Assembly (NCBI RefSeq): GCF_008386465.1
Contig: NZ_VUOD01000002.1
Coordinates: forward strand, 310,001-374,000
Direction of reading: 5' to 3'
Length of the DNA: 64,000 bases
Source: Arenimonas fontis
GTDB lineage: Bacteria; Pseudomonadota; Gammaproteobacteria; Xanthomonadales; Xanthomonadaceae
This document shows, piece by piece, positions 3,828-9,575 of this stretch (positions within the stretch are counted from its first letter, which is position 1; the number at the start of each line of letters is the position of its first letter). Both the position numbers and the translations under genes were made by a program. The notes below the pieces were generated by a model. That model searched no databases. It was not told the DNA's origin and saw only the letters and a program-made list of their open reading frames with translations.

Positions 3828-3860
3828 ACCGGGGCCGGGATCCGTTTCGCACGCCGTCGG

Positions 3861-3903
3861 ACCTGACCTGACCTGACCTGACCTGACCTGACCTGACCTG
3901 ACC
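3861..3903. repeat. Pentanucleotide tandem repeat (ACCTG), about 8.6 copies
   Basis: Eight perfect ACCTG units plus ACC follow one another without a mismatch, 33 bp after the parE stop codon. It is a slippage-prone microsatellite in non-coding DNA. It lies far upstream of the sigma-54 promoter at 4128. Whether copy number varies between strains cannot be judged from one sequence. Confidence 0.95.
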
Positions 3904-3912
3904 GGGCCCGGG

Positions 3913-3945
3913 CCGCCAGCCGCCAGCCGCCAGCCGCCAGCCGCC
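3913..3945. repeat. Heptanucleotide tandem repeat (CCGCCAG), about 4.7 copies
   Basis: Four perfect CCGCCAG units followed by CCGCC lie ten bases after the pentanucleotide array. Two unrelated microsatellites side by side in one intergenic region are unusual for this otherwise compact chromosome. Confidence 0.92.
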
Positions 3946-3950
3946 CAAAG

Positions 3951-3992
3951 TGTGACCCCGGGCACGGAAATGTGACGTTCTGCGTCACATTT
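3951..3992. promoter_or_regulatory. TGTGAC-type repeats with perfect 10-bp inverted repeat, candidate upstream activator site
   Basis: TGTGAC occurs at 3951-3956 and again exactly 20 bp later at 3971-3976. The second copy is part of a perfect inverted repeat with arms AAATGTGACG (3968-3977) and CGTCACATTT (3983-3992) around a 5-bp spacer. The site is about 160-200 bp upstream of the predicted sigma-54 start point, a usual distance for an enhancer-binding protein. The half-site spacing (TGTGA-N9-TCACA) does not fit CRP, which needs N6. The identity of the binding protein is unknown. Confidence 0.5.
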
Positions 3993-4080
3993 CTGCCGCC
4001 GCCGGCTCCGGAAAACCGACCGCTCATCGGCCAGATGGCCGTTGCTGGCCTGCTAACGCGTGTCGGCCGCGCCTTGAACA

Positions 4081-4096
4081 TGTGATCTGGTTCACA
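4081..4096. promoter_or_regulatory. CRP/Clp-like binding site
   Basis: TGTGATCTGGTTCACA is an exact TGTGA-N6-TCACA match to the CRP consensus, which Xanthomonadales Clp also recognises. It is centred near position -65 relative to the start point predicted from the sigma-54 promoter downstream. That places it between the putative enhancer sites and the core promoter, where it could activate, bend DNA or compete with the activator. Direction of control is not known. Confidence 0.65.
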
Positions 4097-4127
4097 CTTC
4101 AAGCCTCCCGGACCGTCCCGGGCAGGC

Positions 4128-4143
4128 TGGCACGCTACTTGCT
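4128..4143 (+). promoter_or_regulatory. Sigma-54 (RpoN) -24/-12 promoter
   Basis: TGGCACG-CTAC-TTGCT matches the RpoN consensus TGGCACG-N4-TTGCW at every position, with GG at 4129-4130 and GC at 4141-4142. The predicted start point is near 4154, giving a leader of about 90 bases before the ATG at 4246. This promoter would drive the whole pilus-like operon and implies control by a sigma-54 activator. Confidence 0.85.
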
Positions 4144-4245
4144 TCGAATGGGCTGCCCGCTCCAAGCGGCCCCTGGTCACAGGAAATGGCCGGGGCAAGG
4201 CCAACCGGCTGTTTCCCCGCAACCCCCAATGAGGAATACATCTCC

Positions 4246-4818
4246 ATGAACACTGTCCGTAGCATCCGAGGCCTCGCCCTCATGGGCGTGGCGGCCCTCG
4301 GCCTGATCGCCATGACCCCGGCCTTCGCCGAATCCGATTTCCAGACCGGCAACGGCGCCTTCTCGGCCAACGCCGACCTGAACTTCCGCGTGGTGATCCC
4401 GCGCTTCATCAGCTTCCGGGTCGGCTCCACCGGCAGCACCGTGGATCTGGTGCAGTTCGACGTTCCGGCCGCCAATGTCGGCGACGGCAGCCCGATCAAC
4501 CGCAGCAATGCCGGCGGCGCGCCGATCCCGGTCAGCCTGCTGAGCAACGTTGGCAACGTGAACCTGTCGGCGACCGGCTCGGGCAGCGGCCTGACCGACG
4601 GCACCAACACCATCCCCTGGTCCGAGATCCTGGGCACCAGCTCCGACAACGCCAACTTCCCCGTGCCGGCCGTCGGCGCCGCCGCCACCACGCTGAACGC
4701 TCCGGCCTCCGGCGTGATCAACCGCACCGCCGACTGGACCTTCCAGTACGCCAACAACACCGTGGTCGGCGCCGGTCAGTACGACGGCACCGTGACCTAC
4801 ACCGCTGCCGCTCCGTAA
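4246..4818 (+). CDS. Exported pilin-like protein, probable major subunit
   Basis: A 190-residue protein with a clear signal peptide ending in TPAFA before ESDFQ. No cysteines are seen in the mature part, which is rich in Gly, Ala, Asn, Ser and Thr and predicted to be beta-rich. The C-terminal pattern FQYANN...GAGQYDGTVTYTA recalls fimbrial subunits of CS1- or spore-coat-U-like families. It shares the pattern TIPxSEI and the same C-terminal strand with the next gene, so the two are paralogues. I chose the ATG at 4246 because GAGGAA lies 9 bases upstream and the signal peptide then starts correctly. It is promoter-proximal, with a hairpin behind it, as expected of a major subunit. Exact family is not certain. 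Confidence 0.75.
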   Translation: MNTVRSIRGLALMGVAALGLIAMTPAFAESDFQTGNGAFSANADLNFRVVIPRFISFRVGSTGSTVDLVQFDVPAANVGDGSPINRSNAGGAPIPVSLLSNVGNVNLSATGSGSGLTDGTNTIPWSEILGTSSDNANFPVPAVGAAATTLNAPASGVINRTADWTFQYANNTVVGAGQYDGTVTYTAAAP

Positions 4819-4835
4819 GGGCGTTTCCGGCGAAT

Positions 4836-4866
4836 GGTGCGGCCATCCCGTGAGGATGGCCGCACC
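4836..4866 (+). promoter_or_regulatory. Intercistronic 13-bp perfect hairpin
   Basis: Arms GGTGCGGCCATCC (4836-4848) and GGATGGCCGCACC (4854-4866) pair perfectly around the loop CGTGA. There is no U-run, so it is not a simple terminator. It sits between the first subunit gene and the ribosome-binding site (AGAGGA, 4871-4876) of the second. Such hairpins in fimbrial operons stabilise the major-subunit mRNA or limit read-through, so that subunit is made in excess; that role is inferred here. Confidence 0.7.
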
Positions 4867-4878
4867 CCGGAGAGGATC

Positions 4879-5520
4879 ATGCGTACCGCGCTGCCCCGGT
4901 TGGTCATACTGGCCGGCGGGCTGGCCTTGTCCAGCTTGGCTTCCGCCTACACCGTGAACATCGCGCCGGCGAACCCGCGCGCTGTATACCTGCGCGTGGG
5001 CGATGGCCTGATGTCGGGCGGCAACTACAACGCCGGCGGCACGCCGGTGTCCGGCGGCGCCGTCAACCGCGTCCTGGTCACGGTCCCGGCCGGGTCCGTG
5101 GGCAACGGCGTCCCGATCGCCATGGGAACGGAAGGCTCGCCCCGCCTGACCAGCGACTACGACGGCTACCTCTTCTGCAACCCCGGGCAGATCTACATCG
5201 GCGGGTTCTACCGGACCACCTCGAACGGCGGCTGGCGCGCCCAGCCGGCCCGGTTGCTGATCACGGCACCGGCCAACCTGGTCAGCGCCGACGGCCACAC
5301 CATACCCATCTCGGAGATCAGCTGGACCACCAGCGGCAACGGAGACACGGGCCCGCAGCCGATCCCGGCAGGCACGCTCAGCGCCGGCCAGAACCAGTTG
5401 ACGACCTTTCCGCGCAACTCCTGGCGGGAAAGCTGCATGAGCTTTACCTACGCCAACCAGAATCTCGTCGCCGCCGGCACCTACGACGCCACGGTGACCT
5501 TCACGCTGGCGCAGCCATGA
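4879..5520 (+). CDS. Exported pilin-like protein, probable minor subunit
   Basis: A 213-residue protein with a signal peptide (MRTALPRLVILAGGLALSS, cleavage after SASA or nearby). The mature part is a paralogue of the preceding gene: both have TIPxSEI near the middle and end in FxYANxxxxxAGxYDxTVTxT. It differs by having two cysteines (in LFCNPG and ESCMSF) that could form a disulfide, and a longer central insertion. The start is set by AGAGGA just upstream; earlier in-frame starts would overlap the hairpin and spoil the signal peptide. It overlaps the next gene by four bases. Likely a minor or adaptor pilin. Confidence 0.7.
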   Translation: MRTALPRLVILAGGLALSSLASAYTVNIAPANPRAVYLRVGDGLMSGGNYNAGGTPVSGGAVNRVLVTVPAGSVGNGVPIAMGTEGSPRLTSDYDGYLFCNPGQIYIGGFYRTTSNGGWRAQPARLLITAPANLVSADGHTIPISEISWTTSGNGDTGPQPIPAGTLSAGQNQLTTFPRNSWRESCMSFTYANQNLVAAGTYDATVTFTLAQP

Positions 5521-5984
5521 GCAGGCTCGTCTTCCTGCTGCTGGGCCTGGGCCTGCTGCTGGCCTCGCCAGCGGCCCTGGGCCAGGCCATGCGCGTGGAC
5601 GACAGCGCCAGCCAGGTGCTGGGCAGCACGCTCAAGCTCGCCTGGGACGAGCCCATGCCCGGCCGCGGCGGCGTCCAGACCCTGTCCGGCACCATCACCG
5701 TCCAGGTGCGGTTGAACGTCCGCCCCTGGAAAGGCCAGCGGGCCCGCATCTACCAGGTGCTGCAAACGCCGGCCAGCACGCGCGTGCATGCCCGCTGGAG
5801 CAGCCAGGGCCGCCTGCTGCCCGGCCAGCTGCGCGGCGGCGAGCGTGCGCTCGTCTACGCCGGCCTGATCGACGCAGACGAGTTGCAGGACGTATTCCAG
5901 TTGACCATCGTCGCCGACGGAGACGGGCTGGAAGATCGCGAAACCCTGAACTTCGACTTCGAAATCGAACTGGAGAATCCCTGA
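5517..5984 (+). CDS. Small exported protein of the pilus-like operon
   Basis: A 155-residue protein with signal peptide MSRLVFLLLGLGLLLASPAA. The remainder is beta-rich and has no cysteines in the mature part. The segment MRVDDSASQVLGSTLKLAWDEP recurs in style with pilin N-termini, and a DGDGLEDRETLNFDFEIEL tail closes the protein. I do not recognise a named family. Its ATG overlaps the previous stop (ATGA) and the chaperone gene follows two bases after its own stop, so it is tightly coupled to assembly genes. It may be a third structural subunit or an assembly aid. Confidence 0.6.
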   Translation: MSRLVFLLLGLGLLLASPAALGQAMRVDDSASQVLGSTLKLAWDEPMPGRGGVQTLSGTITVQVRLNVRPWKGQRARIYQVLQTPASTRVHARWSSQGRLLPGQLRGGERALVYAGLIDADELQDVFQLTIVADGDGLEDRETLNFDFEIELENP

Positions 5985-5986
5985 TC

Positions 5987-6766
5987 ATGTTCCGCCAGGG
6001 GGCCCTGCTGCTGAGCCTGCTCCTGCCGGCACCGGTGCTGGCCCAGGGCTTTTCCGCCCAGGTGCTGCCGCCCCGGTTCGAGGATGCCGCCAAGCCCGGC
6101 AGCACCTACCGGAACGTCATCGAGATCCAGAACGCTTCGCCGGAGGCGGTCCGCTTCGGCGTGCGCACCGCCGACTGGGATCTGGACGACAAGGGCGGCG
6201 TGCATTTCGACTACGCGCTGGCACCCGACAGCTGCCGGCCCTGGGTCGGCCTCGAGGCGCGCGAGATCCGCCTGGATCCCAAAGGCCGCAAGCGCTTCCG
6301 CTTCGAAGTGGCCGTGCCGCCGGGCACGCCGGCCCGCCAGTGCCGCTTCGCCATCATGATCGAGGGCGAGCCGCAGAAGACCGGCGCCGGTGTGGCCGTG
6401 GCCGGGCGGATCGGCGTGATCGTCTACCTGGACATCGCCGGCGCCGCCGCCGCGCTTCGCATCGTCGGCCATGCCGTCGAAACCGTCGAGGGCCGCGACC
6501 TGCCCGTACTGCGGGTAAGCAACGACGGCATTGCCCACGGCAGGCTGCAGGGCCTGCTGGACGGCCGCGACGCCAACGGCCGTCGCTGGACCTTCGTCCC
6601 GGCCAACGACCCGATCCTGCCGGGCCGCCAGCGCGACATCGCCCTGTACCCGATGGGCGAGCCCGAAGGAGTCGCCGTTCCCCCGATCGCCTTCCCGCTG
6701 CGCCTGCAGGGTCGCCTGGACTGGCGGGGCCAGCGCCTGCCCGTGGACGCGACGGTCGCGCGATGA
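5987..6766 (+). CDS. PapD-like periplasmic pilus chaperone
   Basis: A 259-residue protein with signal peptide MFRQGALLLSLLLPAPVLAQ. The two-domain immunoglobulin-like layout of fimbrial chaperones is visible. Strand patterns of domain 1 include YRNVIEIQNASPEAVRFGVR and a KGRKRFRFEVAVPPG stretch resembling the G1-strand region. Domain 2 starts around IVGHAVETVEGRDLPVLRVSNDG. Such chaperones cap pilin subunits in the periplasm and deliver them to an outer-membrane usher. The gene overlaps the following barrel gene by ATGA, a normal chaperone-usher arrangement. It is divergent from the classical PapD/FimC branch. Confidence 0.75.
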   Translation: MFRQGALLLSLLLPAPVLAQGFSAQVLPPRFEDAAKPGSTYRNVIEIQNASPEAVRFGVRTADWDLDDKGGVHFDYALAPDSCRPWVGLEAREIRLDPKGRKRFRFEVAVPPGTPARQCRFAIMIEGEPQKTGAGVAVAGRIGVIVYLDIAGAAAALRIVGHAVETVEGRDLPVLRVSNDGIAHGRLQGLLDGRDANGRRWTFVPANDPILPGRQRDIALYPMGEPEGVAVPPIAFPLRLQGRLDWRGQRLPVDATVAR

Positions 6767-8742
6767 CCAGGACGCCCGCCCCGGCCCGCCTGGCCCTCGC
6801 CCTCCTGCTCGCCCTTCCCTACGTATTTCCGGTCGCCGCCCGCCAGGACGCCGGGGGCGGCGAAACCGGGGAATACCAGGACCGGGTGATCGCGCCCGAA
6901 GACCTGGCGCCGCTGCCCGAGGAAGAGGAGACGCAATTCGACGCCAGCGGCCTGCCGCGCAGCTGGCGCCTGGAGAACGTGCTCAGCCACGTCGAACGCG
7001 GCGACGAGGACTTCACCGAGTTCGGCCTGAACTTCGGCGGCCATCGCGAAACCGAGCGCTGGGGCAGCCTGTCCCTGAACGGCACGGTGTTCCGGCGCGA
7101 CGGCGTCCGCGGCGAGCCGGCCGAATGGATCGGTTCGGCCACCCTGTGGCAGCGCGGCCTGCGATTCGACGGCGGTTGGCGCGCCGACAACGGCCTGGGC
7201 GTGCTGAACACCCCGCTGGTGCCGCTGCAACGCGACCAGTACCGCTTCTTCCTGCCCTCGGTGCCCTTCCTGGGCGCCACCAGCCAGTGGCTGGACGAGG
7301 ACAGCGGCCTGCATCTGCAGGGCGCGCTGGGCCGGGCAGGCGTGTTCTCCGGTTCGCGCATCGTGGCCTTCGACCAGGCCGACGGCAACGTGGCGAGCGT
7401 CGGTGCGCAGTGGCGCTGGTCCGAAGGCTGGACCGGCGCGGCCACGGCTCTGGCGACCGACGGGCTCATCGTTCCGGACCCGATCACCGGCAGCCTGTTC
7501 CAGGACGGCCGCACCGAAGCCGTGCTGCTGAGCACGGGCTGGGAGGGCGGGAACCACCGCGCCCAGTTGCACCTGCATTCGAGTTCCGGCTACCTGGGCG
7601 ACGCCACCGGCCTCTGGGTCGACGCGCAGTCGCGTCGCGGTCGCCATACCTGGAACTACGGTCTCTTTCGCCTCGAGGAAGGCCTCGCCTGGGGCGCCTT
7701 GCCGATCAACAACGACGCCCAGGGCGGCTACGTCCGGCTGCGCCACGACGGCGCGCGCTGGACCTGGAGTGCCGGCCTGGACCGCATAGACTCGGTCAGC
7801 GGCAGCGGCTTCGAAGGCAGCTACGGCACCTTCTTCGCCCGTTACCAGCTTCGCCACAACGTCGGCGTCGGCGGCAACGTCAACATCCGCGACTCCGCCA
7901 CCGCCACCGACTACAGCACCCGCTGGTTCATTGATCGGCGCGGCCGCTGGGGCCTGACCCGGGTCCAGCTCGACCAGGCCCGCACCGGCGGCGGCGATCG
8001 CGAGGACTGGCTGCTCACGCTGGACCAGGACGTGCCGGTCCGCAGCGGCTCGCGCCTGTCGGTGTCGGCCAGCCTGGGCACGCAGGACACCGCGGACGTC
8101 GGCCGCACCGACACCTTCACCCTGTCCGCGCTCGGCGGCATCGAGCTGGGCGATCGCACCAGCCTGGACGGCAACGTCCGCTGGACCCGCGGCGACGGCC
8201 CCGAGGCCTTCCGCGGCGTGGACATGAACCTCAGCCTGAACTGGCGCATGGCCACGCACTGGTGGTTGCAGGCCAGCGTCTACCGCAGCACCGGCGAGCA
8301 GCGCTCGCCCTTCCTGATCGACCCGCTGGCGCCGCCGGACCAGTTCTTCCCCATTCCGCGCGAGCGCTCGCTGTTCCTGAGCATCCGCTACGAGCGCCAG
8401 GCCGGCAGCCAGGCCATGGTGCTGGGCGGCCCGCCCGGCAGCGCCACCGGCAGCATCCGCGGCAGCGTGTTCCTGGACGAGAACGGCGATGGCGTCCGTT
8501 CGGCCTCGGAGCTGCCGGCGGTGAACGTCACCGTGGTGCTGGACGGCCGTTACGTGGTGCGCACCGACAGCCAGGGCGGCTTCGAGTTCCCGCGGGTGGC
8601 GGTCGGCACGCACGAGCTGGTGGTGATTCCGGACAACCTGCCCCTGCCCTGGTTCCTGGACGGCGCCGACGAGCGTCGCGGCGTAGAGGTCAAGGTGCGC
8701 GAGGCCGCCGTGGTGGACATCGGCGCCAGGAGGGAGCGATGA
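6763..8742 (+). CDS. Outer-membrane beta-barrel in the usher position, with C-terminal SdrD_B-like domain
   Basis: A 659-residue protein with a signal peptide ending near VAARQ. After an acidic linker (residues ~25-60) comes a long run of alternating amphipathic strands with Trp/Tyr girdles typical of outer-membrane barrels. From about residue 570 a separate domain begins GSIRGSVFLDENGDGVRSAS and continues with a DSQGGFEFPRVAVG motif, matching SdrD_B/CNA-B-like beta-sandwiches with their calcium-binding-style DENGDG loop. It occupies the usher slot behind the chaperone but is shorter than classical FimD/PapC ushers (about 800-850) and I see no familiar usher N-terminal or plug motifs. It could be a minimal usher or a different secretion pore. 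Confidence 0.6.
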   Translation: MTRTPAPARLALALLLALPYVFPVAARQDAGGGETGEYQDRVIAPEDLAPLPEEEETQFDASGLPRSWRLENVLSHVERGDEDFTEFGLNFGGHRETERWGSLSLNGTVFRRDGVRGEPAEWIGSATLWQRGLRFDGGWRADNGLGVLNTPLVPLQRDQYRFFLPSVPFLGATSQWLDEDSGLHLQGALGRAGVFSGSRIVAFDQADGNVASVGAQWRWSEGWTGAATALATDGLIVPDPITGSLFQDGRTEAVLLSTGWEGGNHRAQLHLHSSSGYLGDATGLWVDAQSRRGRHTWNYGLFRLEEGLAWGALPINNDAQGGYVRLRHDGARWTWSAGLDRIDSVSGSGFEGSYGTFFARYQLRHNVGVGGNVNIRDSATATDYSTRWFIDRRGRWGLTRVQLDQARTGGGDREDWLLTLDQDVPVRSGSRLSVSASLGTQDTADVGRTDTFTLSALGGIELGDRTSLDGNVRWTRGDGPEAFRGVDMNLSLNWRMATHWWLQASVYRSTGEQRSPFLIDPLAPPDQFFPIPRERSLFLSIRYERQAGSQAMVLGGPPGSATGSIRGSVFLDENGDGVRSASELPAVNVTVVLDGRYVVRTDSQGGFEFPRVAVGTHELVVIPDNLPLPWFLDGADERRGVEVKVREAAVVDIGARRER

Positions 8743-9575
8743 ACGCCCCGCCGAACAGCGCCGGCAATGCCACCACCGGGCTGCTGCTGCGCCTGATTGG
8801 CCTGGTGTCGGCCGCCGTGCTGGCGGTCGGCCTGCAGGCCAGCGAGCTGGCCAAGGGCCTGCCCGGCGGCAACGGCTATCGGCTTGCCGACAACGACCGC
8901 TCTACACAGTGCGGCTTCGCCTGGCTGGACCTGGACCGCCAGGGCCATGAGCTCGAGCTGGTCGCCGGGCACCCGGGCGCGGCGGCCGACGACCGGGCGG
9001 CGATGCTGAGGCTGCGCCGGCCCTTCGAACTGTTCCAGACCCGCGTCGACCGGCTGGTGGTGTCGGGCAACGGCTATCTGGCCGCGGCCTCGGATTTCGC
9101 GCAGGACGACGGCAGCGACTACGGAAACCGCTGCGGCCTGCCGGCGCGCGCGGACAACGCCCGCTCCAGCCTCGACCGCATCTTCGTCTACCACGACGAC
9201 CTGCGGCCCCGGCCCGGGGCGCGGGTGCGACATGCCTTCTTCGAGGATTGTCCGCGCGCCGGCGTCGCAGGCAGCGAGGCCTGCACGGTGATCGAATGGG
9301 ATGGCTTCGAACGCAATGCCCCGCTGGCGAGCAGCCGGCCGCTGCGCATGCAGGCGGTGCTGTATCACCGCAGTCATGCCATCGTGATGCAATACGCCTC
9401 GGTGGACGACAGCGTCGGTGGCCAAGCCACGATCGGCCTGCAAGGCTTGGGCGGGCGCAGCGCCAACCGGGCCAGCTGCGATGTTCCGGGCCGGGTCGCG
9501 GACGGCCGCGCGCTTTGCTTCTTCGACCCCCGGTATCCGCCGGACGCCGCCCCGGAAACCGCAACCGCCCCCTGA
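8739..9575 (+). CDS. Exported protein closing the pilus-like operon, putative tip or adhesin
   Basis: A 278-residue protein with an N-terminal hydrophobic segment (LLLRLIGLVSAAVLAVGLQA) acting as signal peptide or anchor. Several cysteines are present (CGFAW, RCGLP, EDCPR, EACTV, ASCDV, LCFFD), suggesting disulfides in the periplasm. The part reading RMQAVLYHRSHAIVMQYASVDDS...ATIGLQG resembles nidogen-like or lectin-like beta-sheets seen in secreted adhesive proteins. It starts inside the barrel gene's stop (ATGA) and is the last gene of the rightward operon, the usual place for a tip adhesin. Function is inferred from position. Confidence 0.55.
   Translation: MNAPPNSAGNATTGLLLRLIGLVSAAVLAVGLQASELAKGLPGGNGYRLADNDRSTQCGFAWLDLDRQGHELELVAGHPGAAADDRAAMLRLRRPFELFQTRVDRLVVSGNGYLAAASDFAQDDGSDYGNRCGLPARADNARSSLDRIFVYHDDLRPRPGARVRHAFFEDCPRAGVAGSEACTVIEWDGFERNAPLASSRPLRMQAVLYHRSHAIVMQYASVDDSVGGQATIGLQGLGGRSANRASCDVPGRVADGRALCFFDPRYPPDAAPETATAP

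Follow-up and report, generated by a model that had tools for sequence, protein, structure and literature searches.

According to the consulted portion of PMC3960871, ushers are five-domain machines, composed of an N-terminal domain (NTD), a pore, a plug and C-terminal domains (CTDs), in which the periplasmic domains process the subunits and the plug blocks the resting pore. As described in the consulted part of PMC4654587, the chaperones of the archaic and alternative systems have an invariant D1 proline and an Arg89-like arginine, and in the non-classical systems the chaperone anchors the C-terminal carboxylate of the subunit via a conserved arginine. We analysed a six-gene operon (P1 to P6) situated in a 64,000-nucleotide stretch (hereafter, the window; contig NZ_VUOD01000002.1, positions 310,001 to 374,000) of the 2.63 Mb genome of Arenimonas fontis, for which an original prediction had proposed an RpoN-controlled, noncanonical chaperone-usher-like pilus system. 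Judging from sequence comparisons, we consider it likely that the operon encodes a divergent chaperone-usher-type system assembling a surface fibre: the chaperone (P4) is well placed by profiles and trees, and the usher role of the barrel-like protein (P5) is less certain.

A conserved operon of restricted distribution

All six rightward frames announced by the original prediction were found (Table 1), together with their tight junctions (ATGA overlaps at P2/P3, P4/P5 and P5/P6, and a gap of 2 nt at P3/P4); the 60 nt between P1 and P2 contain a strong hairpin. None of the six A. fontis proteins had a match above cut-off in Pfam or NCBIfam. The gene-neighbourhood comparison that the prediction had proposed revealed that the order P1-P2-P3-P4-P5 is kept in 41 of the 44 distinct P5 types (the A. 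fontis locus plus the fetched loci), the remaining three being cases in which the contig ends inside the operon. Thus, the arrangement is more than chance and the operon is confirmed as real. Two loci required a counting decision: the apparent order P1-P3-P2 of L088 reflects the choice of start codon for P3 (its stop lies after P2) and was taken as in order, and the P5 type of the incomplete locus L093 was taken as complete through its other copy (L103).

Full-length P5 was present in 13 of the 61 genomes searched (A. fontis and 12 of the 26 other genomes of the genus). Scanning a named genome collection with the P5 alignment recovered 48 loci, 44 of which encode P5 (L078-L121, L118 being partial), the other four matching in or near its C-terminal domain. 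Within 398 genomes drawn evenly from the phylum, three (A. fontis included) had a full P5, and the other 36 matching genomes showed a match in or near the same domain. The operon hosts comprise Arenimonas, Pseudoxanthomonas, Lysobacter, Vulcaniibacterium, metagenome-assembled genomes (MAGs) of Steroidobacteraceae, and Variovorax; the MAG labels Ramlibacter and Rhizobium that also occur among P5 hosts may be binning errors. Six loci, five of them from Variovorax, carry two copies of P1, and P5 had no match among plasmid records. Within the genus and the order, L014-L024 at first resembled P5 paralogues; they were discarded because the sequences listed were either phosphoesterase-like (read from sequence) or long repeat proteins whose only common part with P5 is an SdrD_B-type domain.

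The operon lies directly upstream of rpsB-tsf in four loci, three from Pseudoxanthomonas and one from Vulcaniibacterium (L086, L088, L097, L104), and in three other genomes of the family (L069, L070, L072) an archaic pilin gene of the SCPU type is found upstream of rpsB. Because both kinds of genes occur there, the region next to rpsB may be a hotspot for fibre operons.

The chaperone and its putative subunits

By profile comparisons P4 is a chaperone of the PapD superfamily, as the original prediction had held. A PapD profile grown from the chaperone of L128, in which P4 was never included, matched 42 of 42 P4 proteins (A. fontis P4, E 1.7e-14). With hhalign, P4 aligned to archaic chaperones at 96.9% over 186 columns (0.7% for the reversed P4 control), and to those of a second chaperone-usher group at 99.6%, compared with 17% for classical ones and less than 1% for reversed P4; the value for alternative chaperones was 81.6%. 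This second group comprises L126, L127, L129, L149-L152 and L218, to which the chaperone of Orenia (L122) is added; the L126 chaperone passes the Pfam PapD_N cut-off. Moreover, a profile built from archaic chaperones alone yielded 40 matches among 5,576 open reading frames (ORFs), all of the P4 family, i.e. 40 of the 44 P4-family ORFs that the P4 profile finds in that set (the Orenia chaperone counted in). Searching 397 genomes of the order with the P4 profile gave 17 strong and 16 weak matches (E 9e-10 to 9e-4); the neighbourhoods of 14 of the weak ones were fetched, and 11 of the 16 have an usher (or usher-like) gene or an SCPU pilin gene next to them, none being seen in the three others fetched.

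Two trees were built, with 14 and 12 of 42 P4 sequences, respectively. In each of them P4 formed a single clade (100/100 and 100/99), and this clade shared a supported branch (100/99 and 99/95) with the second-group chaperones and two orphans. This branch stood apart from the archaic and classical chaperones in both trees, and from the alternative ones in the second, for which three rows were left out (L177 and L183, archaic and either odd or long, and L152, of the second group); in both trees the deeper forks are weak and several end branches long. Seven of the nine second-group members of the branch adjoin usher-like proteins.

The two related pilin-like proteins that had been predicted proved to be paralogues: P1 and P2 align at 99.7% with hhalign (E 3e-25). 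Their C-terminal proline is invariant (46/46 P1 and 41/41 P2), which would be compatible with donor-strand exchange, and C100 and C186 of P2 are kept in 41 of 41 sequences. We regard P1 as the probable major subunit and P2 as a candidate tip or minor subunit. The similarity of P1 to second-group pilins (39%) spans only 34 C-terminal columns; among 11 homologues of P1, Pfam gave nothing at an E of 1 or below, and profile searches against solved structures returned apparent chance matches for P1 and P4, and none for P2.

Several observations speak against a chaperone-usher assignment of these three proteins. None of 16 P4 proteins matches Pfam PapD_N, and, by our reading of the alignment, the D1 proline of the superfamily is not kept at the corresponding place, where P4 has Ala in 28 and Arg in 12 of the 42 sequences. 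The comparison with the SCPU pilin profile gave 0.4% for P1 and 2.2% for P2, and both were rejected as SCPU pilins. As regards the arginines, R120 of P4 (Arg in 40/42) lies, by our reading of the alignment, two residues off the place of Arg89, and those at 30, 84 and 141 are invariant (42/42).

The same data bear on two rival explanations. The operon might be a degenerate member of the archaic class, as P4 aligns well with archaic chaperones and an SCPU archaic gene occupies a similar chromosomal spot by rpsB in some genomes of the family; however, the placement of P4 outside the archaic chaperones in both trees and the exclusion of P1 and P2 from the SCPU family make this very improbable. Alternatively, P4 could be a stand-alone Ig-fold periplasmic protein in an operon that builds no appendage and has another role (e.g., envelope maintenance). 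Orphan PapD-like relatives of P4 do occur in other Pseudomonadota (L214, L216), with no usher-like neighbour among the frames listed, yet in every complete locus P4 is adjoined by two paralogous subunit-like proteins with fixed C-termini and by a barrel-like protein, and we give this explanation the least credit of all those considered.

The barrel-like protein

P5 consists of a signal-like N-terminus, a tail of about 40 residues with a conserved Y-x-D-R-x-I motif, a barrel-like region (approximately 66-550) and an SdrD_B-like C-terminal domain (approximately 560-659), all limits being read from the sequence by eye. The usual usher NTD has about 120 residues, so that the tail leaves no room for a full one; compared with the usher domain set, P5 has one CTD-like domain and no recognisable plug. 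Its description in the original prediction, as a barrel too short and too divergent for the FimD/PapC type that ends in an SdrD_B-like domain, was borne out: P5 has 659 residues, and of the profile searches then proposed, those with usher models (PF00577, PF13953, PF13954) matched none of the 20 members scanned and those with SdrD_B matched all 20 (best 3e-10). In A. fontis itself the C-terminus has sub-threshold matches to CarboxypepD_reg (E 2e-4) and SdrD_B (E 0.0017), and solved-structure profile searches retrieved SdrD/UafA domains for the C-terminus and apparent chance matches for the other parts. PF00577 was not found in the A. fontis genome.

We regard P5 as usher-like by its gene position, its partner, its C-terminal domain, its length and its probable barrel. 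The whole P5 profile aligned with archaic ushers at 93% (E 3e-7) and with the second usher group at 95.0% (E 3.5e-8), reversed controls reaching at most 0.6%. The C-terminal domain alone gave 72.7% and 96.2%, respectively, and a generic SdrD_B profile 10% and 91%.

A considerable set of results weighs against an usher identity. The C-terminal domain, which carries most of the P5-usher score in a split-profile comparison, aligns better with generic SdrD_B domains (99.2%) than with ushers, and against the second usher group the whole protein scores below this domain alone. The barrel region reached only 5-8% with archaic ushers (reversed, 0.5-1.1%) and 0.7-1.9% with the second group, its first half giving no signal in the usher profile comparison; removing the plug from the comparison usher profile improved the alignment no more than removing other stretches; and classical or alternative ushers gave 1-2% only (alternative, 1.7%, reversed 1.5%). 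No CooC_C match was found in the A. fontis genome or among the 20 P5 members. Counting alternation peaks (24 in P5 66-550, compared with 43-44 in full ushers) depended on the threshold and was not used as evidence. Any descent of the P5 barrel from that of ushers would thus imply a homology beyond detection by profile comparison.

These results lend themselves to a rival explanation, in which P4 chaperones P1 and P2, and P5 is a convergent secretion channel of the outer membrane, not of usher descent, to which a generic SdrD_B domain was added, with P1 and P2 polymerising outside or forming a coat. Besides the undetectable barrel homology, the closeness of the C-terminal domain to generic SdrD_B and the lack of any gain from the whole protein against the second usher group, it would account for the one P5 member in 20 that matches the generic barrel model OMP_b-brl (E 6e-4). 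Nevertheless, P5 is invariably paired with a PapD chaperone that groups with chaperones partnering ushers, its C-terminal domain is more usher-like than the generic SdrD_B domain, and full P5 surpasses that domain alone when compared with archaic ushers. We therefore regard the convergent channel as unlikely, though a more serious competitor than the degenerate archaic operon, and retain the divergent chaperone-usher-type system as the preferred reading.

Accessory genes and regulatory features

Table 1. Features of the P1-P6 operon and its upstream region (window coordinates).
Feature	Position	Strand	Description
25-bp inverted repeat AAATGTGACGTTCTGCGTCACATTT	3968-3992	.	candidate upstream activator (enhancer) site, putative function
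CRP/Clp-like site TGTGATCTGGTTCACA	4081-4096	.	weak support
Sigma-54-type -24/-12 promoter-like site TGGCACGCTACTTGCT	4128-4143	+	core conserved upstream of P1 in nearer loci
P1	4246-4818	+	190 aa, pilin-like with a signal-like N-terminus; probably the major subunit
Strong P1-P2 intergenic hairpin	4836-4866	+	candidate mRNA stabiliser/attenuator
P2	4879-5520	+	213 aa, pilin-like paralogue of P1 with a conserved Cys pair; tip or minor subunit candidate
P3	5517-5984	+	155 aa, small protein, putative accessory, in every complete operon
P4	5987-6766	+	259 aa, PapD-superfamily chaperone (profile comparisons)
P5	6763-8742	+	659 aa, candidate reduced usher, barrel-like
P6	8739-9575	+	278 aa, optional Cys-containing protein

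P3 was found with 41 of the 44 distinct P5 types, that is, wherever the operon is complete. It matched no chaperone, pilin or usher profile and had chance-level Pfam matches only (12 homologues); its candidacy as a chaperone or pilin was rejected for want of profile support. P6 exceeds 250 residues in seven of the 44 distinct loci, with 96-residue matches in two more. The prediction of a Cys-rich exported protein stood as to the cysteines, six of which are kept in all six aligned sequences; the export of P6, and of the other operon proteins, is our reading of their N-termini. Directly after P5, the P6 slot of L025, L026, L027, L031 and L032 holds short ORFs (96-101 residues) that resemble the P6 N-terminus (by weak profile matches or by eye), and P6 may have decayed or been replaced there.

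The site TGGCACGCTACTTGCT, which we take to fit the sigma-54 consensus, belongs to a conserved element: of the 28 nearer loci, 26 have its core (TGGCAY-N5-NTGC) in the 180 nt that precede P1 (18 in the strict form), compared with six occurrences in 453,657 background bases from these loci; none of the 13 more distant loci has it upstream of P1. Upstream regions were counted for 41 of the 44 P5 types; nearer loci have a P5 at least 46% identical to that of A. fontis and distant ones at most 38%, a split that was set after the sigma-54 counts were first seen and that coincides with a gap in P5 identity. Hence, the predicted sigma-54 control is backed by conservation in the nearer loci and is not a general trait of the operon; the conserved -24/-12 site would presumably act as a promoter. 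The A. fontis genome contains rpoN. Besides four weak matches, the sigma-54 activator domain is strongly matched in three of its proteins, which we read from sequence and neighbours as an NtrC-like, a PilR-like and a further two-component regulator; none of the three adjoins the operon.

The 25-bp palindrome ends about 135 nt upstream of the sigma-54-type site; it recurs in the form TGTGA-N9-TCACA in 8 of 11 Arenimonas-type upstream regions, and its core (TGTGACG-N3..6-CGTCACA) is found at one place only in the A. fontis genome. The CRP/Clp control that had also been proposed fared less well: the site exists, and a CRP-like TGTGA-N6-TCACA was found at a similar distance in only three of 28 upstream regions (A. 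fontis, L025 and L026), so that such control is weakly supported.

In A. fontis the P1-P2 gap has a folding energy of -39.6 kcal/mol, which relative to mononucleotide shuffles is a z of -5.0. Against the same kind of shuffles, 10 of 11 Arenimonas-type gaps had a z of at most -2.3, and six of seven Variovorax gaps had one between 0.0 and 1.5. The hairpin suggests that P1 may be made in excess in the Arenimonas-type loci. Downstream, where the EAL-domain genes of L087 and L102 were the ORFs scanned, both genes (L087:10866-11666 and L102:10944-11747; Pfam E 3e-45 and 1.5e-45) begin within the stop codon of P5. As EAL domains are of the cyclic di-GMP (c-di-GMP) phosphodiesterase type, this overlap in two loci hints at a c-di-GMP-linked adhesion.

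Further upstream, two short motifs are repeated in perfect tandem (8.8 copies of GACCT and 4.9 of GCCGCCA; 3860-3945) between the promoter region and the preceding gene, which we take to be parE.

Proposed assembly and relation to known systems

In the assembly route that we propose for a divergent chaperone-usher-type system, P4 would capture P1 and P2 once they are in the periplasm, donor-strand complementation being the probable mode, and one of its invariant arginines would hold their invariant C-terminal proline. The complexes would then reach P5, which as a barrel in the outer membrane would serve as a reduced usher, devoid of a full N-terminal domain for chaperone docking. Recruitment and handover would be the task of the N-terminal tail of P5 and of its SdrD_B-like domain. 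P1 would form the bulk of the fibre and P2 its minor or tip subunit, P3 would be an obligatory accessory and P6 an optional one. In genomes of the Xanthomonadaceae type, an enhancer-binding protein would drive transcription from the conserved sigma-54 site. Of the distinct assembly system, or divergent clade, that the original prediction had envisaged, the distinctness of the gene set stands (by tree branch and conserved order); P5 is a candidate usher, and the pilus a putative product.

A bolder version, which we advance tentatively and rate at somewhat under even chances, would see in the operon a fourth chaperone-usher class, with its own pilin family, a minimal usher devoid of both NTD and internal plug, and sigma-54 control in Xanthomonadaceae; recruitment and gating would then fall to the short tail, to the SdrD_B-like domain, or to P3 in trans. 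The minimal usher is an attractive hypothesis. If true, it would reveal, through an usher that naturally lacks an NTD and possibly a plug as well, which parts of the usher cycle are dispensable. The operon adds a pilin family and a chaperone branch missed by standard profiles, and surveys based on PF00577 would consequently overlook such operons in environmental Xanthomonadaceae and Variovorax. A literature search at the level of titles and abstract starts retrieved no description of the P1-P5 operon; the second usher group as such was not searched for.

Like the P1-P5 operon, those of the archaic (sigma) systems (e.g., Csu, CupE) encode an usher-like protein and small subunits along with a chaperone of the PapD superfamily. 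They differ by having an SCPU pilin and a PF00577 usher, both absent here, by the length of their ushers (787-825 residues in those compared, P5 being about 130-165 shorter) and by chaperones that branch separately from P4. The alternative (alpha) systems (e.g., ECP, CFA/I) share the chaperone and usher logic, with chaperones to which P4 aligns, and are set apart by ushers that P5 matches hardly better than its reversed control does, and by CooC_C, absent from the A. fontis genome. By description only, the operon can also be likened to CccS/CccP/UshA of Synechocystis, presented in the consulted part of PMC6755745 as a putative chaperone-usher system of cAMP-receptor-regulated genes; unlike this point of comparison, the CRP-like site of the P1-P5 operon is poorly conserved.

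The second chaperone-usher group differs from P1 and P2 in its pilin family, and from P5 in its ushers, which mostly measure 836-1012 residues (L151 has 698 as far as its frame shows) and align along most of their length with archaic ushers (profile of seven sequences; hhalign 99.6%, E 7e-25), although the three of the seven that were scanned (L126, L127 and L129) match no Pfam usher model. Orenia belongs there by its chaperone only: its usher-like protein (1012 residues, with a weak copper-amine-oxidase-N-like domain) reached 10.6% with the second-group usher profile, which is no match. What this group shares with the P1-P5 operon are chaperones that fall with P4 in one supported branch and, in the four usher proteins scanned (L126, L127, L129 and L122), SdrD_B/CarboxypepD domains at the C-terminus, as in P5.

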